DNA of 64,000 nt from Methanovulcanius yangii. GTDB lineage: Archaea > Halobacteriota > Methanomicrobia > Methanomicrobiales > Methanomicrobiaceae. Positions 2,561 through 43,465 of this stretch are shown here, one piece after another. Under the pieces are notes generated by a model, which made no database searches, was not told the DNA's origin, and saw only the letters and a program-made list of their open reading frames with translations. Made by a program: the position numbers and the translations under genes. The first letter of the stretch is position 1. The number at the start of each line of letters is the position of its first letter. The stretch is from assembly GCF_018687785.1 (NCBI RefSeq), contig NZ_LTBL01000001.1:124001-188000 (forward strand), in the 5' to 3' direction.

Positions 2561-2989
2561 TCATTCGCCGAGTTTCACAAGGATCTGTTCCCCTTCGACC
2601 TTCACCTCGTGCGTTTTCAGCGGCCGGGGAGATTTCACCAATGTTGCAACGGATAATTTGATGCCCGACCAGTCGGTCCACCGAATCGCCGTCCCATTTC
2701 CCAGATCAAACTGCGAGTGATGGAGCGGGCAGGTCACGACGGTGCCTTTGAGTGTACCGGAAGAGAGATCTCCACCCATATGGGGGCAGCGGTTATCAGC
2801 TGCATAATAGCGTTCCCCGACCTGAGCGATGAGAATCTCACGGTTCCCGACTGCAGCTTTTTTCATGGCACCGTCCCGGAGGTCAGCGGTGGTGCATACT
2901 TCGATAAATTCACTCACAGATTCTTCAATACTGAAAGGTGGTGATAAACCTTGTCCCTGTCCGGGAATCCCGGTCCCTTGCGCCGTCAT
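2561..2989 (-). CDS. Rieske [2Fe-2S] ferredoxin-like protein
   Basis: Two Rieske cluster motifs are plain: CPHMGG and CPLHHS, giving the Cys-His plus Cys-His ligands of a [2Fe-2S] centre. The protein resembles the small soluble ferredoxins related to NirD and dioxygenase ferredoxins. The first 25 residues are low in complexity and not family-like. The ATG at 2989 overlaps the stop of the upstream ligase gene as ATGA, favouring translational coupling, but a GTG at 2914 would give the usual start just before EFIEVC. It may pass electrons to the reductase encoded downstream; this is inference. Confidence 0.85.
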   Translation of the reverse strand: MTAQGTGIPGQGQGLSPPFSIEESVSEFIEVCTTADLRDGAMKKAAVGNREILIAQVGERYYAADNRCPHMGGDLSSGTLKGTVVTCPLHHSQFDLGNGTAIRWTDWSGIKLSVATLVKSPRPLKTHEVKVEGEQILVKLGE

Positions 2990-3990
2990 TTCCGCCCCTC
3001 CCGCACCACCTCACCGGCCGGTTTGTCATCCCGCAGCCCGAGGAACCTGGGGTGGCGGAGCTTTCCGTCCGGCGTCCATTCGGTGAATGCGACCTCGCAG
3101 ACGAGGTCCGGCGTGATGAAATGCTCCCCCGTCTCCTGCCGTGACTTTCCTGCAAAGGGCGAGGCCGTCTGCTCGCGGGCGGCGAGGCGCTCGTGGAGAT
3201 CGGCAAGCATCCGCTCGTCGAAGCCGGTGCCCACCTTGCCGGCGTAGACGAGGCGCTCTTTCTCGTAGTAACCGATGAGCAGGGCGCCGAACCCGCTCCT
3301 GCTTCCCTGCGGGTCGGTGTAGCCGCCAATGACGAACTCCTGCCGGACGATGCACTTGAACTTGAGCCAGTCGGTGGACCGCCTGTGCAGGTAGCGGCCC
3401 GCCGCCCGCTTGGCGATGATCCCCTCCCACCCCTGTTCGCAGGCCTCGCGGTAGCAGTCCGCCCCGTCGCCGCTCCGGTGCTCCGTGGAGCGCAGGGGAT
3501 CTTTGAAGGGGATGAGACGGCGGAGGAGCCGTTTGCGGGTGGAGAGGGGGAGGGCACAGAGGTCGTATCCGTCGAGGTACATCAGGTCGAAGAGATAGAG
3601 GAACACGGGGATGGTGCTTCGCCTGGCCCTGCGGCGGTCATGGATCTGCATCCGCTCCTGCAGGCGGGAGAAGCTGGTTACGTCATCCTCGAACGCGACG
3701 ATCTCGCCGTCGGCGATGAAATGGGCATCGTGCATCCCGGCAAACGCGTCCTCGAGGTCCGGGTAGGTGTTGTTGACCCGTTTCCTGTGGCGGGAGAGCA
3801 GCCGGACGGTGGTTCCGTCGCTCACGACGATGCAACGTTCGCCGTCGAATTTGCGCTCGTAGAACCATCCGTCGCCGGGGACGGGCCGGTCGGTGAGGGT
3901 GGCGAGCATCGGCGTCATGAAGTCGGGTTGCCGGCGGGGGACGAGGGCCTCCCGCTCGTCCTTGTCGAGGTCGTCGAGCAGGGGATGCAT
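2986..3990 (-). CDS. ligD: NHEJ ATP-dependent DNA ligase (LigD ligase domain)
   Basis: This is a 334-residue stand-alone version of the ligase domain of bacterial LigD, which seals double-strand breaks held by Ku. The adenylation motif I is FYERKFDGER with catalytic Lys47; LKFKC (motif V region) and the OB-fold entry GGYTDPQGSRSGFGALLIG follow. Bacterial LigD normally fuses ligase, polymerase and phosphoesterase; here each is a separate gene, the other two with Ku on the opposite strand at 4639-6894. It is distinct from the larger replicative archaeal Lig1. Its stop overlaps the Rieske start by four bases. Confidence 0.92.
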   Translation of the reverse strand: MHPLLDDLDKDEREALVPRRQPDFMTPMLATLTDRPVPGDGWFYERKFDGERCIVVSDGTTVRLLSRHRKRVNNTYPDLEDAFAGMHDAHFIADGEIVAFEDDVTSFSRLQERMQIHDRRRARRSTIPVFLYLFDLMYLDGYDLCALPLSTRKRLLRRLIPFKDPLRSTEHRSGDGADCYREACEQGWEGIIAKRAAGRYLHRRSTDWLKFKCIVRQEFVIGGYTDPQGSRSGFGALLIGYYEKERLVYAGKVGTGFDERMLADLHERLAAREQTASPFAGKSRQETGEHFITPDLVCEVAFTEWTPDGKLRHPRFLGLRDDKPAGEVVREGRK

Positions 3991-4131
3991 GGTTTGTTAC
4001 GTCCATGGGACACGGCAATGGGCAAAGGTGTTTCGGCCGTTGTCATCTCCCTTACATCGTAGTGTCCGATAACAAGCCATTCTCTGGCCCACCTCCACGC
4101 AGACGCACCGGCTGTGCCGTCCGATGAACAC

Positions 4132-4515
4132 TCAATAATAGGTATATTTGGAGGGTACCGGCACTGGTGTTACATCCGAATAAGAAATCCTTATCACCAG
4201 AATCAGGAGATAGGCAACCGCCAAAAACAGAAGAATCCCAAGTGTGGTGAGAATCTTATGTTCAATCGGTCTTCCGGCTTTTCGTGCCCGGTAGATCTCC
4301 ATCAACGAACACCCGAAGGGATACAGGATGATGGCCCAGACAGCCAGATAGACCTCATAGAAGAGAATGAACGGGATGAAATACAGGGAGTCATCGATAC
4401 CCATATCGTACTTGATATACGGTGCCCAATAGATGAGATTCATCAAAAACAGCCAGATCGCAAGCGGGATGGCAACCTTCCACCGATCTGGTCTGAAAAA
4501 ATCCCCCATGGTCAT
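4132..4515 (-). CDS. Small integral membrane protein, unknown function
   Basis: The product of about 127 residues has three or four hydrophobic helices (near residues 14-33, 45-68 and 88-109) and a conserved-looking loop with positively charged residues before the last helix. I do not recognise the family. An A/T-rich element (CCTTTATGG in minus-strand sense) about 30 bases before the start could be a TATA box giving an almost leaderless transcript. It sits between the NHEJ ligase and the divergent polymerase-Ku genes, but nothing ties it to repair. Confidence 0.6.
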   Translation of the reverse strand: MTMGDFFRPDRWKVAIPLAIWLFLMNLIYWAPYIKYDMGIDDSLYFIPFILFYEVYLAVWAIILYPFGCSLMEIYRARKAGRPIEHKILTTLGILLFLAVAYLLILVIRISYSDVTPVPVPSKYTYY

Positions 4516-4638
4516 TTACACAGAGATCCGATTTTGATGCCATAAAGGTTCTGCGGTGCATCACATCATCGTGACGTGATCGGCTCCGCCAAGATTTTTC
4601 ACCGATGACGTTACATCCTCACCCGGTTGGTGCATGCC

Positions 4639-5517
4639 ATGAAAGCTGCTCAAAGGGTCGGGAGGGTGACGGTCAATCACCTCGACCGTATTCTCTACCC
4701 CTCGCAGGGGATATCCAAGGAGGCGGTGATCCTCTATTACATCCGGGCCGCCCCCCGTCTCCTCCCGTTCCTTGCCGGGCGGGCGCTCGTCATGCAGCGG
4801 TTCCCGGACGGCGTCGGCTCGCCGGGGTTCTACGCAAAGGACGCCCCGGCGGGCACTCCGTCGTGGGTGACCCTCTTTGCTCATTATTCCACCTCGGCGG
4901 GACGGGAGATCCGCTCCGTCGTCTGTGACAGCCCGGACACCCTCGTCTGGCTCGCAAACCTCGCGGCGCTGGAACTGCATATGCCCCTTGCCCGCACCGA
5001 AGACCCGGCGTCACCCGACATGCTCTTCTTCGACCTCGACCCGGAACCCCCGGCGGGGTTTGCGGAGGCGGTGACGGTGGCCCTTACCGTTCGTGAAGTG
5101 CTCCGGGACCTCGGCCTGTCCCCGTTTGTGAAGACCTCCGGGAGAAAGGGCCTGCACGTCGCCCTTCCGCTGGAACGCCGGTACTCGTTCGAGCGGACGC
5201 GCACCTTCGTCCACGGCGTGGGGATCCTCCTCGCCCACCGGATGGCAGGGGTGGTATCCGAGCTCTCCGGCACCCATACGCCGGGGACCGTCTTCGTGGA
5301 TTATCTCCAGAACGCCGCCGGGAAGACGATGGTTGCGCCGTGGAGCCTGCGGGCCACGCCTCAGGCGACGGTCTCGATGCCGGTCTCGTGGGATGCCCTC
5401 GAGAGGGGGGTGTCGCCCGAAGATTTTACTATACATGAGGACATCTCCAGAACGAACGATCCCTGGGAGGGGTTCTTCGACCAGGCAGAACGACTGCCGG
5501 AGGTGCAACATGAGTGA
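4639..5517 (+). CDS. ligD: NHEJ polymerase/primase (LigD PolDom)
   Basis: The protein of about 292 residues matches the primase-polymerase domain of LigD, which fills gaps at broken ends, often with ribonucleotides. The catalytic acid pair is in FFDLDPEP (Asp132 and Asp134 from this start), and KTSGRKGLHVALP is the nucleotide-binding block with its conserved His. The ATG at 4639 has GGTG six bases upstream; a TTG at 4627 is in frame. Its last codons overlap the Ku start by eight bases, so the two are surely cotranscribed. As a free-standing gene it is the split-gene arrangement known from the archaeon Methanocella. Confidence 0.92.
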   Translation: MKAAQRVGRVTVNHLDRILYPSQGISKEAVILYYIRAAPRLLPFLAGRALVMQRFPDGVGSPGFYAKDAPAGTPSWVTLFAHYSTSAGREIRSVVCDSPDTLVWLANLAALELHMPLARTEDPASPDMLFFDLDPEPPAGFAEAVTVALTVREVLRDLGLSPFVKTSGRKGLHVALPLERRYSFERTRTFVHGVGILLAHRMAGVVSELSGTHTPGTVFVDYLQNAAGKTMVAPWSLRATPQATVSMPVSWDALERGVSPEDFTIHEDISRTNDPWEGFFDQAERLPEVQHE

Positions 5518-6319
5518 GGAAGAGCAGGAGACGGGGCCGGTCCCGCACAAGGCGTTCTGGACGGGGAGCATCAGCATCGGCCTCGTGAACGTGCCGGTCC
5601 GCCTCATGGTGATGGTCCATGAGCACAAGGTCGCCTTCAGGCAGCTGCATAGAAAGGACGGCCAGCCCATCCATTACAAGCGGGTCTGCGGCGCCGAGGA
5701 GACGGAGGTGGCGTGGGAGGAGATCGTCAAGGGGTACGAGGTGAGGAAAGGCGAATACCTGATGATCGAGAAAGGCGAGCTCGATGCCATCCGGCCGGAG
5801 TCCGACCGGCGCATCCGCATCGACCGCTTCATCAACCTCGCCGGGGTGGACCCCGTCTCCTTCGACCGCACCTATCTGCTCATTCCGGACGAACACCCCG
5901 ACGCCTATGCCCTCCTCAGGGAGGCGCTCCGCCGCAAGGGGCGGGCGGGTATCGGCCGGATCACCCTGCGGATGCGGGAGTACCCGGCGCTCGTGCAGGA
6001 GTACCGGGACGCCCTGATCCTCCGCACCCTCCATTATCCCGACGAGATCACGGACACCGCCCTCGTCGAAGAGCTCGCGTACATCCCCGCACCGGGGAAG
6101 AAGGAACTCGCTCTCGCGGAGCGTATCATCGACGACCTGACCGGCGAGCTTGATCTTACGGAGTACCATGACACCTACCATGAGCGGATCATGGATCTCA
6201 TCGAGAAGAAGATGAAGGGGGGGACGGTCCATGTCGAGGAGCCGGAGGCGGCGGAGGCGATGGAGCTTGTCTCCGCCCTCGAGGAGACCCTTGCCCGGAT
6301 CGGTGAAGCGAAGGGATGA
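5510..6319 (+). CDS. ku: Ku family DNA end-binding protein
   Basis: At 269 residues this is a bacterial-size Ku, which forms a homodimeric ring on DNA ends and recruits the LigD activities. Typical blocks are AFWTGSISIGLVNVPVRL at the N-terminus, IHYKRVCGAE, and DRTYLLIPDE in the core. The frame is open upstream to 5333, but that part is the polymerase gene in another frame; the ATG at 5510 begins the Ku homology. Archaea mostly lack Ku, so the gene points to acquisition from bacteria. Confidence 0.95.
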   Translation: MSEEEQETGPVPHKAFWTGSISIGLVNVPVRLMVMVHEHKVAFRQLHRKDGQPIHYKRVCGAEETEVAWEEIVKGYEVRKGEYLMIEKGELDAIRPESDRRIRIDRFINLAGVDPVSFDRTYLLIPDEHPDAYALLREALRRKGRAGIGRITLRMREYPALVQEYRDALILRTLHYPDEITDTALVEELAYIPAPGKKELALAERIIDDLTGELDLTEYHDTYHERIMDLIEKKMKGGTVHVEEPEAAEAMELVSALEETLARIGEAKG

Positions 6320-6432
6320 GCAGGGCTGGAGAGGAAGTGCAGGAGGAGAAGAGAGGATATGCGATCCGGCGCGGGAAGGATTTGTCTGCCGGTGGGGTAT
6401 GAGGGTGGGCCTTCTGCCGAACGGAGGCTGCC

Positions 6433-6894
6433 ATGAGCCTGAAAGAATACCATAAGAAGCGGGATTTCGATGCGACCGGCGAGCCAGAAGGAGAGGCGGC
6501 ACCGGACGGAGGGGAGGGGAGCCTCTTCGTGGTGCAGGAGCATGCGGCCCGGCGTCACCATTTCGACTTCCGGCTGGAACACGACGGCGTTTTGGTCTCC
6601 TTCGCTGTCCCGAAGAACGTCCCTCTGGAGCCCGGCGAAAAGCGGCTTGCCGTCCGGACCGATGATCATCCCCTCGCCTATGCGGAGTTCGAGGGGACCA
6701 TCCCGGAAGGGGAGTACGGGGCGGGGGAGGTGGTCCTCTGGGACCGCGGTTCCTACGAGCTTGTCGAGTGGAATGACGAAGAGAAGATCGAGGTGGTGCT
6801 GCACGGGAATCGCCTCGAGGGGAAATATGCGTTGGTCCGGTTCAGGAAGGCGGGGAAGAACGACTGGCTTTTACTGAAGGCGAAGGAGGGGTGA
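6433..6894 (+). CDS. ligD: NHEJ 3'-phosphoesterase (LigD PE domain)
   Basis: This 153-residue protein equals the LigD phosphoesterase domain, which removes 3' phosphates and terminal ribonucleotides at breaks. The hallmark motifs are RRHHFDFRLEHDG, holding the metal-binding His and Asp, and FEGTIPEGEYGAG, followed by WDRGSYE. GGAGG lies six bases before the ATG. It follows Ku after about 110 bases, probably on the same transcript, completing the end-joining set. Confidence 0.93.
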   Translation: MSLKEYHKKRDFDATGEPEGEAAPDGGEGSLFVVQEHAARRHHFDFRLEHDGVLVSFAVPKNVPLEPGEKRLAVRTDDHPLAYAEFEGTIPEGEYGAGEVVLWDRGSYELVEWNDEEKIEVVLHGNRLEGKYALVRFRKAGKNDWLLLKAKEG

Positions 6895-7022: not shown

Positions 7023-7517
7023 TCAGAGACTGTCTCTGCTCTCATCAATTAATTTGGTCAACCGGCTCCGTAATGTCTTCACCTGTTTTTCATCAAGCCT
7101 GGCGACAGTTGACCTGCATGTTACCAGAAACCGGGGCACCCGCTGTGAAAGGGTGACGGAAAAGGTCTCGGAAACAGTTCTGGTGACATAATACTGTGTT
7201 TCCACCCGTGCCTGGCGTGCTTTTTCGATCATCTCACACTCGTCGGGGATAAAATATTCGGTAAGAAGTTGTTGCATAATTTCAATGGTGCAGGTGTGGT
7301 TTTCCGACTTGATTCCAATCTTCATGAGAACGGAATACAGGGAAAAATACATGGAATAATATCCGGTCGAGATCTTCCAGTCGAATGATGAAACGGAATG
7401 CATGGCCTCCATCGCCTCTTCGGCCTTTTTCAGGTATGCAGATGAAAGATTGTCATTCGGTTCGACGAGCATGATACCGTTTTTAATTCCGGCGCACCAC
7501 GTTAATCGGTCTTTCAT
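7023..7517 (-). CDS. HEPN domain protein
   Basis: The helical 164-residue product has the layout of HEPN proteins: the YLKKAEEAMEAM start helix, then GYYSMYFSLYSVLMKIGIKSENH, the usual core. The catalytic RX4-6H RNase motif is not visible; at the expected place there is RVETQYYV. It may therefore be a non-catalytic HEPN. It overlaps the upstream nucleotidyltransferase by four bases (ATGA), the typical organisation of MNT/HEPN modules, where one partner restrains the other. Confidence 0.75.
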   Translation of the reverse strand: MKDRLTWCAGIKNGIMLVEPNDNLSSAYLKKAEEAMEAMHSVSSFDWKISTGYYSMYFSLYSVLMKIGIKSENHTCTIEIMQQLLTEYFIPDECEMIEKARQARVETQYYVTRTVSETFSVTLSQRVPRFLVTCRSTVARLDEKQVKTLRSRLTKLIDESRDSL

Positions 7518-8098
7518 GCCATGACCTCCCTGACAAACGATTCCGCGTTCTTCCAGACAATATGGTTCTTTTTCACTTCAGTAAGAAGAGGATCGAACTC
7601 TCCCCGTGAAGTGAATGCATCTTCCGGGTACACGATGGTATTAATCTCGACACCGTACATTTTCTCAATTTTTTTGACGGCCTGCTCATCCGTGGCCCCG
7701 GCGATGAAGATATCGATATCAGAATCCTCTGTAGCAGTTCCTTTCGCATAACTCCCAAAAAGAACGACAATCCCTTCTGAGACAGAGGAGATTTTGGTTA
7801 AAATCTCTGCAACAAAGAGATGATTTTGCATGAAGCGGATTTTTTTATAGATCTCGGCGAGGACGAAATACTGGGTGGAAATTTCACCCGGTTTAATCCG
7901 GAACAGCCGGATTTTCCCGCGTTGAGACGATTCAAGCACTTGTTTTTCCTCAAATCGTACGAGGAGGGTCTGCGCAGTCCCGTGACTGAGGGGGAGATAG
8001 GTACAGATCTCCCGGATGTAGTATTCGCGGTCATACCCGTTGGTGAAGAGGGTAAGGACCAAGAGCCCGTTTTCATTTATGTCTAATTTATTAGACAT
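7514..8098 (-). CDS. Nucleotidyltransferase (MNT) with N-terminal winged helix
   Basis: Residues 10-70 form a winged-helix DNA-binding domain, and the C-terminal part is a minimal nucleotidyltransferase with GSYAKGTATEDSDIDIFIAG; the GS pair and Asp127/Asp129 are intact. In MNT/HEPN pairs this enzyme modifies (AMPylates) the HEPN partner to neutralise it. The fused DNA-binding domain suggests it also represses its own operon, supported by the palindrome over its start codon. Toxin-antitoxin function is inferred. Confidence 0.82.
   Translation of the reverse strand: MSNKLDINENGLLVLTLFTNGYDREYYIREICTYLPLSHGTAQTLLVRFEEKQVLESSQRGKIRLFRIKPGEISTQYFVLAEIYKKIRFMQNHLFVAEILTKISSVSEGIVVLFGSYAKGTATEDSDIDIFIAGATDEQAVKKIEKMYGVEINTIVYPEDAFTSRGEFDPLLTEVKKNHIVWKNAESFVREVMA
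8079..8098. promoter_or_regulatory. Palindrome overlapping the MNT start codon
   Basis: ATGTCTAA and TTAGACAT form a perfect inverted repeat with four bases between. On the minus strand it covers the ATG and the first codons of the MNT gene, and a further half-site (ATGTCTTA) follows at about 8099. The position fits an autoregulatory operator for the winged-helix domain of the encoded protein. Confidence 0.5.
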
Positions 8099-26161: not shown

Positions 26162-29100
26162 TCATATCGCAACAGCACCACAGATCTTTTCGGCCTGTTC
26201 CAGAACGGTCTTGGTGGCCTGTTCCTGCATGTCGGGTGGATAGCCATATTTTCTCAGAATCCTCTTGACCATCACCCGCATCTTTGCCCGGACGCTCTCC
26301 TTGGCAGCCCAATCGATAGTGACGTTGTTTCGTATGGTCACGACAAGTTCTGAGGCAATCATTCTCAGGATTTCGTCCTCCATGACCTGGCGTGCACTTT
26401 CGTTCTCTGCAAGTGCGTCATAGAAGGCGATCTCTGCATCGGAGAGGCCGAGATCTTCTCCCCGCTTGACGGTGTCGCGAACATCCTGTGCCGTCTTGAT
26501 CAGCTCTTCAATGATGATGGCTGTTTCAACCGAACGGTTCTGGTATTTTCTCACCGATTCCTCAAGCATCTCAGAAAACTTTCTGGACTGGACTACATTG
26601 CGTCTCAGGCGGTTTTTGATCTCGTCATCGATCAGCTTACGCAGGAGTTCGACGGCGAGATTCTTCTGCGGAAGCTCTCGCACTTCCGCGAGGAAGTCAT
26701 CCGAAAGAACGGAGATGTCCGGTTTTTTCAGTCCCGCCGCCTGGAAGATATCAACGATCCCTTCGGGCGTGATGGCTTCCGAGACGAGCTGCTGGACAGC
26801 ATGGTCGAGTTCTCCCTGTGACTTTCTCGTCTTAGATGTGGTCTTTGCAATCGATGCCTTGACCGTCTGCAAAAAAGCCACATCGGTCCGTATTCGTTCG
26901 GTCTCTTCATGGGGGACGCAGAGCGAGAATGCGGTGGAGAGTTGCGTTACCGCATCGAGGTACCGCGACTTTCCATCCTTTTGGGAGAGGACGTGCTCCA
27001 TTGCGGCGGGGATGAGCGACAGGCGTCTGCCGGGATCGCCGGTGTGCCATGCCGACCAGTCGAAGCCGTGCAGCATGTCGCAGCAAATCTCGTATTTTTC
27101 CAGCATGAGCGAGACGGCCTCTTCCTGCTCCTCGACACTCAGTCCCTTGTGCTTCTTGTTCTCGTCGGTGTATTCTGCGATGGCTTCCTTGAGTTTTGGC
27201 GCAATGCCGAGGTAATCGACGATGAGGCCACCTGGCTTGTCACGGAAGACCCGGTTGACCCGTGCAATGGTCTGCATGAGGGTGTGGCCCTGCATCGGTT
27301 TGTCGACGTACATCGTGTGCATGCAGGGAGCGTCGAACCCGGTGATCCACATGTCGCGGACGATGACGATCTTCAACGGGTCCGCAACATCGACATATCG
27401 AGCTCGTACTTTGTCCCGTTGACGTTTCGACCGGAAGTGCCTCTGCCACTCCTCCTTGTCGGAGGCCGAACCGGACATGACGACCTTGATGGCCCCTGTC
27501 ATGTCGTCGTCGCTGTCCCAGTCGGGCCGGAGGCGGGTGATGGCATCATACATCTCGACGCAGATGCGCCTGCTCATGCAGACGATCATCGCCTTGCCGT
27601 CGAGAGTTTCGAGGCGCTTTTCAAAGTGGTTGACGATGTCCTCCGCGATGATGTCGATCCGGTGTTCTGCCCCGACCACCGCTTCGAGCTGGCCCCATTT
27701 TGTCTTGAGTTTGTTTCTGACGTCCTCCTCTTCGTTCTCCGTCACCTCTTCGAAGGTGCTGTCGAGGAGGGGCTTTTCCTCATCGGGGAGTTCGAGTTTG
27801 GCATGGCGGCCTTCGTAGTAGATGGGAACCGTCACGCCGTCCTCGTTTGCCTGGATAACATCGTAGATGCTGATATAGTCCCCGAAGACCGCCTTGGTGT
27901 CGCGGTCCTTGAGGGAGATAGGTGTGCCCGTAAACCCGATTGAGGAGGCATTCGGAAGTGCCTGCCGGATGTATTCGGCAAACCCGTAGCGGATGAATCC
28001 GGTCGTCTCGCTGACGTGCGGGGTGAAGCCGTAGTGGCTCCGGTGTGCCTCGTCGGCGATGAAGACGATGTTGTGCCGGTCGGAGAGGAGGGGATGATCT
28101 TCTTCCTCCTTTTCGGGGAAGAATTTCTGGATGGTGGAGAAGATCACGCCGCCGGATTCACGCGTGAGGAGTTCGCGGAGGTCCGCCCGGCTCTCTGCCT
28201 GAATGGGCGTCTGGCGGATATGTTCGTGGCAGCGGCCGAACGTCTCGAAGAGCTGGCCGTCGAGGTCGTTCTGGTCGGTGAGGAAGACGAGGGTGGGGTT
28301 CTCCATCTCCCGGCGCAGGATGATCTGGCGGGCGTAGAAGACCATCGAGAGGCTCTTGCCGGAACCCTGCGTGTGCCAGATGACGCCGCCCTTCTTGTCG
28401 CCTTCGGGTGCGGAGGCCGTGATGGTGCTCTCGACCGCCGCCTTGACGGCGTGGAACTGGTGGTACGCGGCGATCTTCTTGATGAGCGTCGACCCGGTGT
28501 TCTCGAAGAGGATGAAGTCGCTCATGTACTCGAGGAACCGGTCTTTGGCAAAGAGGCCCTTGAGGAGAACTTCGAGCTGGGGGATGACGGAGGATGCGGT
28601 CTCGTCGCCGTCGATGGTCCGCCAGACCATGAACCGGTCTTCGTCGGCGGTCAGGGAACCGGCCCGTGCCTGGACGCCGTCGGAGATGACGAGCACTTCG
28701 TTGGTGTTGAAGAGCGATGATATCTGCTGCTTGTAGGTCTGCAACTGGGTATAGGCCGACCATATGGTGGCGTTCTCGTCGGCCGGGTTTTTGAGTTCGA
28801 GGACGGCGACGGGGATGCCGTTTACGAAGACGACGATATCGGGCCGCCGGTTGTGGTCCCCCTCGACCATCGTATACTGGTTGACGACGAGCCAGTCGTT
28901 TCTCTCCGGCTCGGAAGTATCGATCACCCTGACGAGCCCATGGCGGACGTCCCCGTTCTCCCGGTACTCCACGGGGATGCCGTCGGTCAGGTATTGGTGA
29001 AAGACATGGTTGTTCTCGATGAGCGCCGGAGACGGAGGAATGGTGAGCTTTCGAACCGCCTCATCGATGGCATCGTCTGTAAGCATGGGATTGATGGCAT

Positions 29101-29272
29101 AGAGCGAGTCCCGGACCCGCCGGAGAAGAAATGGCTGATGATAATCGTCCCGCTCCGCCGCAGGCTCCCCCGGAGCAATCTCAGGCCCGGAGACGACATC
29201 GTACCCGAGGTCCGAGAACCACTGGAGGGCCGCGTCTTCGACTTCGGATTCGGTGAATTTGTAGGGGGTCAT
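26162..29272 (-). CDS. hsdR: Type I restriction endonuclease subunit R
   Basis: A 1036-residue translocase-nuclease. The N-terminus carries the PD-(D/E)XK-like nuclease ([20 protein letters not shown]), followed by the helicase motor: Walker [16 protein letters not shown] box [20 protein letters not shown] and a late motif [10 protein letters not shown]. The C-terminal helices bind the methylase complex. It cuts DNA that lacks the methylation made by HsdM/HsdS. It is separated from hsdS by a foreign-looking gene, with only three bases between that gene's stop and the hsdR start. Confidence 0.95.
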
Positions 29273-30393: not shown

Positions 30394-31671
30394 TTACGCT
30401 ACTTTCACTCTGATTTCTCCAGAGATAAGCTTTGGGAGGATTTGATCGCGAATTTCGGCGAGGGTGCGGGAATGGATAGCATTGTTAATTTGCATTTCGA
30501 TTAATGGCGATAATATTTGGTCAATTTCACTGAAGAGCTCCATTGGTGGAACGATGATTTTTGCGTCTCTAAGATTGTGTCTTTTTATATGGCCCATAGT
30601 CGTAGCTTTATCTGCAGCAATGGATCTGAAATCTTCCAAAAAATGATGAGTCCAGAGATAGCAGAACCATTTTGGATATAGTTCTGATGAAACTTTGAAC
30701 AAATGTTGATTGAGTATACCTTCACCATAGGACCAAATGCATATTTGAAGACTCCCAGACCATGAAAATAGAATGTCACCATTTTTGATCAAATATTTTA
30801 ATGGCACCGATTTTGATGCTTTATCCGTATTTGAGGTAATTCCGTTATTAAGCTCACGAATTTTTATCACCGGCAATGAATCCAGTTCATCTATAGGGGG
30901 ATACTTTTGACAGGCCAAACCATTCATAAATTCAATATTACAATCCAAAGATTCTACTGTCCACCCCTTTGGCACCTCTCTCCCATCAACTACCTCAAAC
31001 CCATCCGGAAACAGCGCCGCCGTCTCCTCGTCCATGCCCTCCGGCTGCCGTCCTTCAGCCTTCGCCCGCACCGGATCGAAGTCCACGAACCATGATGTGA
31101 AGATGGCCTGCGCTATTGCTTCGAGGGTCTCGTTCATCCGACAGTTTAGCTCTATCTTGTCATCGAGGGCTTTTAGAATATGAACAATAGATTTTTGCTG
31201 AGGGAGTGGCGGGAGACAAACATGGAAGGCTTTTGCTTCAGGATAGTAGATCGTTTGATGGGTTGTGCCACTTGCAAAGCGCAAGAGTGCATCATTTTCT
31301 GCTAACAAGACATATTTTAAAAAGTGTGGATTAATTTTCTTGCCACAAACCCAATTCACAAAATCTTGGCTTGTAGCCATCGATCGCCCCATGACGACAA
31401 CATAACCGACAGAAGCCGTTCTTGATAAACAAACCGTATCTGGGGGGAGAAGACGTGCGGAGGAATTGGCTAAACCAAGATCACTAACGTGTTGATATGT
31501 ATCGAATATTACTTTTCCATGATGTTCAATTGCATCCTTGAGACCTATCCAAGGAATGTCACCATCCCAGTATTCAGGATGCTTCCGGCTAGGAGTATGC
31601 CCACTTTCTAGTTGAGCAATATCACTTAATGCCGTCCATTCCCAACCTTGTGGGGTTGGAAGATCGGGCAA
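30394..31671 (-). CDS. hsdS: Type I restriction specificity subunit
   Basis: Two target-recognition domains joined by conserved helices: TRD1 starts at LPTPQGWEWTALSDIAQLESGHTPSRKHPEYW, the spacer has LPPLPQQKSIVHILKALDDKIELN, and TRD2 begins at VPKGWTVESL. TRD2 is much more AT-rich than TRD1, as expected if recognition domains are exchanged. The same frame stays open upstream and encodes GTGRTGGRIATKGVIAGKYALSVG, a block normally present in this HsdS group, back to 31770 inside hsdM. No ATG, GTG or TTG opens that extension, only ATT (31770) or ACG; TTG at 31671 is the first ordinary start. Confidence 0.9.
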   Translation of the reverse strand: MPDLPTPQGWEWTALSDIAQLESGHTPSRKHPEYWDGDIPWIGLKDAIEHHGKVIFDTYQHVSDLGLANSSARLLPPDTVCLSRTASVGYVVVMGRSMATSQDFVNWVCGKKINPHFLKYVLLAENDALLRFASGTTHQTIYYPEAKAFHVCLPPLPQQKSIVHILKALDDKIELNCRMNETLEAIAQAIFTSWFVDFDPVRAKAEGRQPEGMDEETAALFPDGFEVVDGREVPKGWTVESLDCNIEFMNGLACQKYPPIDELDSLPVIKIRELNNGITSNTDKASKSVPLKYLIKNGDILFSWSGSLQICIWSYGEGILNQHLFKVSSELYPKWFCYLWTHHFLEDFRSIAADKATTMGHIKRHNLRDAKIIVPPMELFSEIDQILSPLIEMQINNAIHSRTLAEIRDQILPKLISGEIRVKVA

Positions 31672-31756: not shown

Positions 31757-33367
31757 TTATTTGTCGTAATTTAAATCCCCCAAATTTGATTCAATAATTG
31801 TTTCCAACTCATGACTCTTGAGAATTTGATTGCGTAACTCCGCCGTCAAGCGTTCCATCTTCTCCGCAAACGGCTCGGCATCATCATCCTCGACGATCTC
31901 CGCTCCGACATACCGACCCGGCGTGAGTACGTACCCGTGCTTTGCCACTTCTTCGAGCGTCTCGCTCTTGCAGAAGCCGGGTACGTCCTCATACTCGCCG
32001 GCGCCATCATCGCCCCGCCAGGCATGGTAGGTCCCGGCGATGCGGTCGATGTCCTCATCGGTCAGTTCCCGGTGGGTGCGGTCCACCATTACGCCCATCG
32101 TCCGGGCATCGATGAAGAGAATTTCGCGTCGTCTGTTGCGGAACCGGTTGTTCTTCTTGTCGCGGGAGAGGAACCAGAGGCAGGCGGGGATCTGGGTCGA
32201 GTAGAAGAGCTGGCCCGGCAGTGCCACCATGCAGTCCACCAGATCATCCTCGACGATGTTCCTGCGGATGTCGCCTTCGCCGGAAGTGTTTGAGGACATG
32301 CTGCCGTTTGCGAGGACCACCCCTGCCTGCCCGGTGGGGGCGAGATGGTGGATGAAGTGCTGCATCCAGGCGAAGTTGGCGTTGTTCTTGGGGGGAATGC
32401 CGTATTTCCACCGGACGTCCTGCCGGAGCTTCTCGCTCCCCCAGTCCTTCATGTTGAAGGGGGGATTGACGAGGATATAGTCCGCTTTCAGATCCTTGTG
32501 GAGATCATTTGCGAAACTGTCTGCTGCATGGTCGCCGAGGTTGCCTTCGATGCCCCGGATGGCGAGGTTCATCTTCGCAAGCCGCCAGGTCGTCGAATTG
32601 GACTCCTGCCCGTAGACGCTGATATCGTTTTTGCGTCCGCCATGGGCCTCCACGAACTCCTCGCTCTGGACAAACATACCGCCGGACCCACAGGCGGGAT
32701 CATAGACCCGGCCGTGGTAAGGGGCAAGCATCGCAACAAGAATCCTGACAACACATCGCGGGGTGTAGAACTGACCGCCCTTCTTGCCTTCCGCACTGGC
32801 AAACTGGGAGAGGAAATATTCGTATACACGGCCGAGGACATCCTTGGAACGGCTTTCCTTATCCCCGACGGTGATGCCCCCGACGAGGTCCACCAGCTCG
32901 CCGAGCCGCTGTTTATCGAGGCTCGCCCGCCCGAAGTCCTTTGGGAGCACACCTTTCAGGATAGGGTTGCACTTTTCGATCTCGACCATCGCATCGTCGA
33001 TGAGGACACCGATCTTGGGGGACTTTGCATGTGCCTGAAGGTAGGACCATCGTGAGACCCTGGGAACCCAGAAGACATTTTCGGCAAGGTATTCATCGGG
33101 GTCTTCGAGGACTGCATACTGCTGGTCGGGTTCTGCGACGTACCACTCGCTCTTCGGGTTGGATACTTCCCGCTTGATGTGTGTATAGCGTTCCTCGAAC
33201 GAATCGGAGATGTATTTTAGGAAGATCAGGCCAAGGACGACGTGCTTGTACTCCGCTGCATCCATGTTGGACCGGAGTTTGTCCGCAGCTTCCCAGAGTT
33301 TCGCCTCGAATCCGATTATTGCGCCGCTATTCGATTTTTTATCACCGTTCGATTTTTTTCGTGCCAT
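31757..33367 (-). CDS. hsdM: Type I restriction-modification methyltransferase
   Basis: A 536-residue adenine-N6 methyltransferase. The N-terminal helical domain ([36 protein letters not shown]) is the standard HsdM start, then the SAM site [14 protein letters not shown] and the catalytic NPPF motif ([12 protein letters not shown]). It methylates the target read by HsdS and protects host DNA. It is the first gene of the operon; its stop overlaps the extended start of hsdS. Confidence 0.96.
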
Positions 33368-34785: not shown

Positions 34786-34875
34786 TTTTATAACTTTATA
34801 ATATTACCAATCACAATTTGGATTTATTTACTCATTTATGTAGTCCCCGTCTGCCTGATAATAAAAAACGAATAT

Positions 34876-34957
34876 GCGAGGGGAGGGAGTCGAACCCGCG
34901 AACACCTGCGTGAGTGGATCTTGAGTCCACCGCCGTTGACCACTTGGCTACCCTCGC
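34876..34957 (-). tRNA. tRNA-Leu (anticodon CAA)
   Basis: On the minus strand GCGAGGG and CCCTCGC form the acceptor stem, GTGGA-CTCAAGA-TCCAC the anticodon arm with CAA, a long variable arm follows as expected for leucine, and GGGTTCGACTCCC gives the T loop. No intron is apparent. The 3' end points toward the restriction island, the usual orientation for an integration target. Confidence 0.93.
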
Positions 34958-39589: not shown

Positions 39590-42500
39590 TCACATAAAGT
39601 CCGCGAGCCCCAGCTGGGTTTCCTTCTCCTTGCCGAAGGTCGAGAGGATGTACATGTCGAGCATCTCCACCCGCTGCCGGGTATACTCGGAGATGTCGTA
39701 CTCCTCGCAGATATTCAGCGACATCTCGAGATACTTCTTCACCGACCCCTCGTGGACGGTCTGGATGATGTTGCCGCCGCACTTGTTGCACTTGCCCGAC
39801 ATCGTCATGCGGCGGTACTTCGTGTTGCACTTCGTGCACCGCATCTTCTGTTTGGAAAACGCGTTCAGGTTGCCCTGCAGGTCGCGGATGAAGTGCGTAT
39901 TGAGCACCCGCTCGGCCACGTCCGACTCGTCGACCGCCCGGATGGACTTTGCGAGGTCGAGCTCCGCGTCGAGCTTCTCGAGCATCGTGGTGAGTTTCGT
40001 GTAGGTCGACTCCAGCGGCCCCGCCGAGATGTCGGAGGTGTCGTGCGTGAACATGATCCCCTCGTACTGCGCCGGCGTCCCGAGGCGGTTTTCCACGTGG
40101 TCGATGAGCTTGTCGAGATCTTTGGGGTGGGTGTAGGTGAGCGTTGCGAGGTAGAACTCCAGCGGGTACGAGGGGCAGGCATCCACGTTGTGCGACTCCT
40201 TGTCGACCTCCGACGGGTCGAGGGTGGAGGTCAAGACCAGCGGGGCGTCCATCGACCCGCCGCGGGTCTCCGGCAGGAAGGACTTCGAGAAGTTCAGAAG
40301 GCCGTCCATCAGGAGCATCACGCAGTCCTCGTCCCCGTCGCACTGGCCGGTGAAGATCCCGTTCGCCGCAAGCGTATGGTCCTCGTCCACCGTCAGGCAG
40401 TAGACATACTCCCCGAGGTTCTCTACCACCTCACGCTTCGCTATCGTATCGTTGATCACCATCCGGCCGTCGAAGGTCGGGACGCAGTCGCCCTCCTTCA
40501 CCTCCATCGCCGTGATCTTTCTCAGGTACGCAAGCTCGGTCACCACCATCGCGTGGTCCGCCGTCACCGTCAACGACTTCCCCCGCGTCGTCTCGAACCG
40601 GATGAGGGTCGCGGGCGCCCGGTGAACCGAGACCGACGTCACCCGGCGCAGCCGCACCCGCCCCGTCGTGTCGATCGCGTGCACCCAGAAGGGCGCCTTC
40701 GGGTCCGAGTAGTAGGTCCCCACCCGGTCGAGTTCCGGCCGGTCGAGGTCGAAGTTCTCGACGACGAAGTGGCCGATGGGAAGCTCCCGCCACTCCGAGC
40801 CGTCGTAGACCTGAATCATCGTGTCGGCCGCAAAGCAGTTGCGCCGTTTTGCTGCGTGGAAGAAGGGATGGGCGTAGCCCACATGGGCCTTCGAATACCC
40901 GATCAGCCGGGCCAAGACCCCCGCCGAGGTGTGCGGGGCAAGGCCCATCAACAATTGCCCCACGAGGTCAGACGGGCGCTCCACCTGATAATATGGCGGA
41001 AGGCCGTAGATCTTCTCCAATGACTCGTCGACGAACTTCGCCACCCGGACGAGCCAGTTGCCGCAGTCTTCCGAGACGAGGATGTCCTGTGCCTTCAGTT
41101 CGAGTACCTGATCCGCGGACTCCAGCGGCGCCCCGTAGACGTCGCGGAGATACCCGAGCTCGAGGAGCCGTTCGACCGGGGTGCCCACCTCACGGGGGCG
41201 GAAGTGGGTGAGCGGGAGATCGATCATGTCGTACCGGATGGTCCCGTCCTTGAAGACGTAGAGTTCGTTTTTCGCCCGGAGGAGGCCCTTCTCCAGCGGC
41301 TCTATCGTCCGCTCCTTCGAGATGAGGCCCTTGACGCCCTTCACCAGCTTGAGCTCGTTCTCCCGCATCCCGATGGAGGCGCAGGCGGCCGCATACTCCT
41401 CCTTGACCGGGATTGTGATCGTCTGGAGGCAGACCCCCTCCGCCCCGCAGGCCGGGCAGGTGTCGGTCTCAAGCGTCCGGTTGCACCGCGGGCAGGTAAA
41501 GACGGCCGTCGTGTGCGTCCCGCAGGCCGGACAGGCGTTCTTGTAGGTCTCCTCGCCGCATGAGGGGCACCGGCGGCGCCCGATATCCGCCGTGATCGTG
41601 CCTCCCGCGGAATTCCCCTTCGCCTTGGCGACCTCCTGGAACGACCGCCGGGAGCCCCCCTCATCACCGACCGGAAAGAGGGCGTGGGGCGGGGGCCGCA
41701 TCTCCCGTGCCTTCGACTTGCCCGGCCGACCCATCCGCCCGCCGATGCGGATGCCGCCCTTCGAGCGCATCTTCATCCCGGCGAGGTACTGGACAAGGGC
41801 GAACGCATCATCCTTCGGCGCATCCTCCCACCGGCTCGAGAAGGACAAATCCTGCGTGAGTCCGAGACAGGCGAGGACGACGCGGGGTGTTGCCACCGCC
41901 ACCCTGCCATCCCTGACCGTATGCGGGACGAGGAGGGTCTCGAGGATCTCCTTGCCCCGTCCCTCGGCAGGTATGGTGAGGGCCCCGTCCGCAAAGGTCC
42001 CGTGCTTGGCCACGAACTTGGCGAGCTCCTTTATGTCCGCCACCGGCAGGTCGTCCCACATGTACATGTACTGCGGGTGGAGGTAGGCGCCGTCAAGCGC
42101 CATCGCGATCGCCTCCATCTCGTCCGCGGGCGTATGGGTGCCCCCTTCGAGGAGCCACCACTCTTCGCAGTAGGAGCCGGGCATCAGCACGTGGTTGTTC
42201 TCGAGAAATTCGCCGTACGAAACGAGCATCTCGCCGACGTCGAGGATCTCGTCCACCTTCCCCATGAGAGGCAGGGCCTCTTCGATCGTGTCCGCCCGGA
42301 GGACGTCGCCATTCAGGAGCTTCACCGTCGGCCCCTCGATCGTGTCGACCGGCACGACGCCTGCGGCCTTTCCGGGCCGCTCCACCTTCATCTGGGTTCC
42401 GACGGCGAGAAAGTCCCCCAGCAGGTGCAGCGTCGCGGGGTTGAACCCTGCGGATGCAAATCCTGTGTTCCGGGAGCGGCCGTAGCGGAGCCGAAAGCCC

Positions 42501-43465
42501 CCCGGCCGCATCGGGTACGAGAAGACCGGACGCCCGCCGATGAGGTCACGGATGTACTTGTCCTTCGGCTTGACGCCGGGCTTCTTCTCCTTCTCCTCCT
42601 CCTCGTCGTCGTCGGAGGACTTGGATGAGACCCCTGCGATGAGGTCATCGAGCCAGTCCCAGCCCTCGATGCCCACCTTGCGCACGTTCTTCTGGATCTT
42701 CGGGGCCTTGAGGGCGAGACCCTCCGCGACGACGAGGGCCATGCCGCCCCGGACCGTGTTCGTCTCGATCCGCTCGAGGTTCCGGTAGGCCGACACCTCC
42801 ACCTGCTCGGTCGGCTCCCCCTCGATACAGACCGGGCACTCCCGGATGATCGTCCGGAGTTCGGCATCGCTCGGGAGGTACTGGAGGCTCATGATATTGT
42901 TGTATTTCTTGACCTCCTCCACGTAGCGTTCGACCTCGTCGTCGCGGGGGATGTACCGGTTCATCCCCAGTCCCTTTCTCACGTAGTCGCCCACGAGAAC
43001 GGAGAGCGCCTGCGCCGTTCCGCCCGCACTCCGGATGGGCCCTGCATAGTAGATCTTCAGGTACTCCGTGCCGTCGTCGTTTCTCCCGACGCCGACGCGC
43101 CCGATGCCCTCGGTCGGCGCCGCCACCACCCCTTCGGTCAGGAGCGCCATCGAGGTGCGGATGGCATGATCGAGGATCTCCTCCCGCGTCTCCTCCCCGA
43201 ACATCTTCGCGATAAAGTCGTCACCGATGCGCAGTGCCACCTCTTCCCGGGACATCTGCTCCCCCAGCTCACGCAGCCGGGCGGCCACCCCCTCGTAACC
43301 GAGGAGCGCCTCCACGCGGTCGGCAAGGTCGGATGCGACCGGGATCTCCACCTCGCACCGCGGGTCGACCCCCTTCGTGCGGGCGGCCCCGGCGACCCTG
43401 ATGGCGCGTTCCAGCTCCTCATTCAGTGAGGCAAAATAGGCCTCCATCTCCGGTGACGCCTGCAT
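39590..43465 (-). CDS. polC: DNA polymerase II (family D) large subunit DP2, intein-bearing
   Basis: DP2 is the catalytic subunit of the archaeal replicative polymerase D. The 1291-residue precursor holds [24 protein letters not shown] near residue 125, zinc-binding clusters ([38 protein letters not shown] near the end), and the catalytic region with [19 protein letters not shown], where the Asp residues bind metal. An intein of 165 residues interrupts this motif exactly before CDGDEDC. Removing it leaves 1126 residues, normal for DP2. The small subunit DP1 is not in this window. Confidence 0.97.
40343..40837 (-). other. Mini-intein in DP2 (165 residues)
   Basis: The insert runs from Cys877 ([13 protein letters not shown], block A) to Gln1041 ([10 protein letters not shown], block G), followed by Cys1042 of the host protein. 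Block B is [10 protein letters not shown] and block F is [17 protein letters not shown]. There is no homing-endonuclease domain. The last residue is Gln instead of the usual Asn, and Gly replaces the penultimate His, features known for polymerase D inteins. Splicing joins the active-site motif of DP2. Confidence 0.93.

Follow-up and report, generated by a model that had tools for sequence, protein, structure and literature searches.

We report that a stretch of 64,000 nucleotides from the methanogen Methanovulcanius yangii (hereafter the window, positions 124001-188000 of a 2.28 Mb contig in a genome of 2.29 Mb and two contigs) carries four genes that are confirmed, by families and motifs, as a complete archaeo-prokaryotic non-homologous end joining (NHEJ) gene set. 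The genes, which lie within 3.9 kb and have intact reading frames, encode an ATP-dependent DNA ligase (Lig), a primase-polymerase (Pol), Ku and a 3'-phosphoesterase (PE). The explanation that we consider probable is that the set is of mixed ancestry, with a Pol-Ku-PE core of one archaeal lineage (type A) and a ligase of another (type B), and that it was horizontally transferred from in or near a genus of the Methanoregulaceae, here called g40. A first-pass annotation of this DNA correctly recognized that a methanogen other than Methanocella has a complete NHEJ set of the bacterial type, divided among separate genes; two mcrA loci in the genome confirm that this host, a member of the Methanomicrobiales, is a methanogen.

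The separate and apparently intact genes of that annotation proved to be so, and each product scores above the curated cut-off of its NCBIfam model, with Pfam assignments in agreement. Lig (2986-3990, minus strand, 334 aa) matches TIGR02779, the NHEJ-type ligase family LigD-Lig, at 304.1 bits (cut-off 227.75); Pol (4627-5517, plus strand, starting at TTG 4627 or ATG 4639) matches the LigD-Pol model TIGR02778 at 239.1 bits (cut-off 214.7) and also PF21686; Ku (5510-6319, plus strand, 269 aa counted from the ATG at 5510) matches TIGR02772 at 256.8 bits (cut-off 150); and PE (6433-6894, plus strand, 153 aa with an N-terminal extension) matches the LigD-PE model TIGR02777 at 198.8 bits (cut-off 144). 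Motifs were read from an alignment with Methanocella paludicola, bacterial and archaeal relatives, in which the loss of catalytic residues raised as a possible objection was not seen in Lig, Pol or PE. Lig has the complete series K47-FDG, ADGE, EGIIAKR, WLKFKC and RHPRFLGLRDDK, and Pol has FFDLDPEP, SGRKGLHV, FVDY and the arginine of QRFPDG, with both the DxD and the third aspartate present. In PE, all six active-site residues (H37, H43, D45, R47, H79 and Y83) are in place, and their spacing, 6-2-2-32-4, equals that of the six residues named for the M. paludicola enzyme (PMC4797286); the second residue before H79 is D77, a position held by glutamate in five aligned relatives. Among solved structures, the best matches of Lig are mycobacterial LigD (1vs0) and other ATP-dependent ligase chains (6nhz, 6nhx), and that of Pol is the M. 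paludicola NHEJ polymerase (5dmu), while Ku matches the bacterial Ku structures 9vnq, 9i91 and 8v53 and PE matches the Methanosarcina barkeri enzyme 3p43.

The distribution of these proteins was examined in 232 genomes of the Methanomicrobiales (40 genera), and that of Ku also in 393 sampled genomes of the phylum, coded below as G for genome, f for family and g for genus, the host being f1/g1. Ligases fall into type A, the Methanomicrobiales ligase usually fused to PE; type B, on the side of Methanocella and bacterial LigD; and a third type, C. In the ligase tree, the window Lig and 14 type B ligases, including that of M. paludicola, form a clade of 15 rows with support 100, within a larger group that contains the bacterial LigD ligases, and uniting the window Lig with the type A ligases is rejected by the approximately unbiased (AU) test (p = 2e-6). 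The single trees of Pol, Ku and PE, on the other side, place the window proteins inside type A clades. The concatenation of the three joins the window to G221, G223 and G227 with 100/99 and nests it in an 11-row g40 clade with 100/100. For Pol, the AU test rejects a clade of the window protein and the Methanocella-type (type B) Pols at p ~ 3e-145; for Ku and PE, grouping with their M. paludicola counterparts is also rejected, though less strongly (p = 0.019 and 0.017), and the placement of M. paludicola Ku is itself unsure because of its long branch. By these trees, the ancestry of Lig differs from that of Pol, Ku and PE, and a ligase of the Methanocella-type clade beside a Pol-Ku-PE core of type A clades therefore makes the set a hybrid. 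A type A ligase was not found in the host genome, where the sole further match is a 587-aa frame at 34% identity. The branch shared with Methanocella that had been anticipated thus holds for the ligase and fails for the other three proteins; placement in unrelated clades had also been proposed as grounds for refutation, and the outcome, two clades, argues for a hybrid set and not for the failure of a working one.

One line of evidence for transfer is a comparison with DP2, the large subunit of DNA polymerase II (39590-43465, minus strand), a housekeeping control from the same window. DP2 is 89-91% identical within the genus, 70-76% within the family and 62-65% to g40 (near 65% in full-length matches), whereas the best identities of the NHEJ proteins to g40 are 77% for Ku, 74% for Pol, 70% for Lig and 69% for PE. 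In the same-genus sisters of the host, G122 and G123, we found no Ku, Pol, PE or this Lig. Since the NHEJ genes are closer to g40 than DP2 is and the sisters are without the set, horizontal transfer is indicated. The left border of the set is a Rieske-type ferredoxin gene (2561-2989, minus strand) with Lig directly upstream; both sisters keep a Rieske-UbiA-GGR cluster in which the genes upstream of Rieske are not NHEJ genes, so that the NHEJ genes are an insertion relative to the sisters. The simplest source of the insertion would be a transfer, perhaps in a single event, from a donor resembling g40. We saw no sign of a phage source of Ku, phage Ku being mainly from mycobacteriophages and at 31-33% identity among the matches listed.

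Vertical inheritance from an ancestor of the Methanomicrobiales, with loss in the sisters and with the ligase types as ancient paralogues sorted differently, is the alternative that survives best, and it draws on the scatter of both systems over several families of the order and on the presence of both in G156. We nevertheless regard it as unlikely: the window Pol, Ku and PE nest in one genus of another family, joining the window in one clade with G101, a genome of its own family, is rejected (p = 0.0005 for Pol, p = 0.003 for the concatenation), and neither the excess of identity to g40 over that of DP2 nor the two sisters without the set fits it well. Several observations do speak against transfer of a hybrid set as we propose it. 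DP2 is a single control gene; both sisters are known from drafts, of 82 and 91% completeness; the position of the window PE in the PE tree is loose; and most of the groups submitted to the AU test, apart from the Methanocella ones, were picked after the trees had been inspected. Nor does base composition point to a recent transfer, as the GC content at third codon positions is 0.78-0.88 in Lig, Pol, Ku and PE against 0.89 in host DP2, which means that the event was old or the donor similar in composition. Lastly, none of the g40 genomes examined has Lig linked to Pol-Ku-PE, which leaves a donor form not yet seen or a linkage that arose later.

A different objection is that Lig is an independent repair ligase that adjoins Ku, Pol and PE by chance. 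It stands on the opposite strand, beside an unrelated membrane-protein gene, and in three g40 genomes Lig follows a gene of the metallo-beta-lactamase fold. We think this doubtful, a little more so than vertical descent, as Lig matches the LigD-Lig equivalog domain and the host has no other LigD-type ligase beyond the 587-aa frame mentioned above. In addition, type B Lig closely co-occurs with Ku (14/15 genomes against 26/217, p = 3e-11, not corrected for relatedness) and lies beside Pol in M. paludicola and in six Methanomicrobiales. The metallo-beta-lactamase-fold gene directly precedes Lig in those three g40 genomes (L185:8964-9704 on the minus strand, L186 and L188), is 81-85% identical between genomes and is present as a fragment in L190; it might encode an accessory nuclease or be unrelated.

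The partnership of core and ligase varies across the order. Among the 31 genomes of the order with a type A Ku/Pol core, the ligase is of type A in 16 (accompanied by type B in one of them, G156), of type B only in 11 and of type C in two; in the remaining two, both incomplete drafts, no ligase was found. The type A architecture, Pol-Ku followed by a Lig::PE fusion, is common (G101, G001, G156 and others), and G152 has it as four genes, Pol-Ku-Lig-PE. Type B Lig-Pol cassettes occur in G156, G230, G210, G211, G007 and G008, and G225 and G146 combine Pol-Ku-PE with the third ligase type. The g40 genomes lack the type A ligase; they have Pol-Ku-PE at one locus and a type B Lig at another, where the type B Pol is mostly absent. 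A tblastn search of g40 for remnants of the type B Pol beside Lig and of the type A ligase beside PE gave nothing convincing (lowest E-values of about 0.03 to 0.3). Only in the window, among the genomes examined, does Pol-Ku-PE adjoin a type B Lig. These arrangements can be put into a plausible series, in an order of events that we infer: a complete type A system with a type B Lig-Pol cassette, as in G156; loss of the type A ligase with the cassette kept, as in G230, G210 and G211; loss of the type B Pol too, as in most of g40; and linkage of all, as in the window.

In the explanation that we favour, the Pol-Ku-PE core would derive from a type A system of the Methanomicrobiales, in which ligase and PE are usually fused, and Lig would derive from a separate Methanocella-type Lig-Pol cassette and have taken the place of the type A ligase; g40 or a close relative of it is the most likely origin of the composite, which would have reached the host by transfer between methanogen families. 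We lean, with some reserve, towards a broader reading in which this is a naturally chimeric NHEJ system, its core and a ligase of different ancestry being selected together and passing jointly from one methanogen family to another, and in which it represents one case of a recurrent exchange of ligases, of three lineages, round a Ku core. If so, the recruitment of ligase by Ku would have to be loose enough to allow ligase swaps.

Two further explanations carry little weight. An assembly artefact, contamination or a decaying, functionless island is very improbable: the region to the right (6895-34870) has 48% GC, below that of the flanks, so that the locus does border variable DNA, but the contig that holds it is 2.28 Mb long, which makes mis-binning unlikely, the neighbouring genes on the left have matches of 66-76% in same-genus genomes, and all four frames are intact with their motifs, unlike the broken genes of G169 and G010. 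Least probable of all is a common Methanocella-like archaeal NHEJ branch for the four genes, which the grouping of Lig with Methanocella ligases would favour and which the trees and the AU tests given above rule out for the four proteins together, identity to M. paludicola being only 26% for Ku and 37% for Pol.

Within the locus, the last 8 nt of Pol are also the first 8 of Ku, PE starts 113 nt after Ku, and Pol, Ku and PE therefore look like one operon and may be co-expressed. By homology to the characterized archaeo-prokaryotic system (PMC4797286), a Ku homodimer would bind and pair the broken ends, and PE would resect 3' ribonucleotides and remove 3'-phosphates. Pol would fill and extend with strand displacement, probably with ribonucleotides as in its characterized relatives (the wedge arginine is conserved), and Lig, again by homology, would seal. 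That Lig lies on the opposite strand with a gene in between, as the first-pass annotation had it, is borne out; the intervening gene (4132-4515, minus strand), upstream of Lig and on its strand, encodes a small putative membrane protein of 127 aa and no assigned family, for which tblastn against 30 related loci gave no match. The divergent gap is thus the 111 nt between this gene and Pol (4516-4626), which possibly hold a bidirectional promoter. Aligned with three g40 relatives, the region upstream of Pol has TTTATATGA in common among the relatives and CCATAAAGG at the corresponding window position, a promoter signal too weak to call. A partly conserved leader, GATGA(G/C)GT..CATCCTCACC, lies at 4600-4626, just upstream of the Pol start, in the window and the three g40 genomes, and may be a regulatory site or leader.

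Around the NHEJ genes, other features of the window deserve mention. In G122 and G123, a UbiA-like prenyltransferase gene separates Rieske from the GGR-family reductase; the window lacks this gene and has a gap of about 190 nt (2369-2560) instead. To the right, 6895-34957 has lower GC (48% against about 60% outside), extends from the NHEJ genes to a tRNA-Leu gene (34875-34957) and looks like a genomic island; it holds an MNT/HEPN-like pair (7023-8098) and a type I restriction system (HsdR 26162-29272, HsdS 30394-31671, HsdM 31757-33367). A limited search for attachment repeats from the tRNA-Leu gene gave only a trivial self-overlap at the fragment edge on the plus strand, at which the search for shorter repeats on that strand stopped, and none on the other. 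DP2 apparently contains an intein, with Hint/intein-splicing matches near residues 927-1015, and its match to M. paludicola DP2 is confined to the parts flanking residues 878-1041.

A 2021 review named M. paludicola as the sole archaeon with a complete NHEJ complex (PMC8708640), and a 2020 survey found Ku with a LigD ligase domain in 10/243 archaea (PMC7719229). That Archaea rarely have Ku, as the first reading of this DNA stated, stands overall, but in this order Ku is present in 40/232 genomes and 16/40 genera (64/393 sampled genomes in the phylum), Pol in 35/232 and PE in 140/232. The presence of Ku in the order is not new, as it was already listed for a single member, Methanolinea mesophila (PMC11936186). 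By a hand tally, about 29/232 genomes of the order have all four functions (Ku, Pol, PE and a LigD-type ligase), in several architectures, and on these gene counts complete NHEJ is commoner in the order than recent literature states. Some lineages have broken genes, namely a split Pol in G169 (L091) and an interrupted Ku and ligase in G010 (L120), suggesting ongoing loss. Elsewhere in the phylum, family f10 has Ku::ligase fusions of 656-667 aa (L137:8027-9997, plus strand; L136:1337-3340, minus strand), which hold full Ku and full LigD-type ligase domains, both above the NCBIfam cut-offs; a further open frame of 663 aa (G388, C172) is listed with them, and no earlier description of such a protein turned up in a text search of the literature.

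Ligases of types A, B and C occur with the same Pol-Ku-PE core and so allow a direct test of what Ku requires of its ligase, and intact NHEJ in cultivable methanogens would matter for genome editing. The kind of system is already known; its hybrid form with all four genes side by side was seen, among the genomes examined, in the window alone. The M. paludicola system (PMC4797286) likewise consists of four separate proteins of the same families, and its ligase is of the same branch as the window Lig (48-50% identity to Methanocella-family ligases). There, however, PE, Lig and Pol form an operon with Ku about 1.5 Mb away, whereas the window has a Pol-Ku-PE operon of another branch with a divergent Lig beside it. 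The type A systems of G156, G101 and G001 share the branch and order of the window's Pol, Ku and PE, but their ligase is fused N-terminally to PE and belongs to another clade, while the window Lig is separate and outside the type A clade. In bacterial LigD/Ku systems (Mycobacterium, Pseudomonas), domains and motifs are as in the window, with Lig, Pol and PE joined in one polypeptide instead of three separate frames. The closest sequences and the same hybrid composition are those of genus g40 (with G230, Methanoregulaceae archaeon OWC_0044, JAJRBS010000152.1), in which Lig lies elsewhere in the genome, in contrast to the window, where the four genes stand together.

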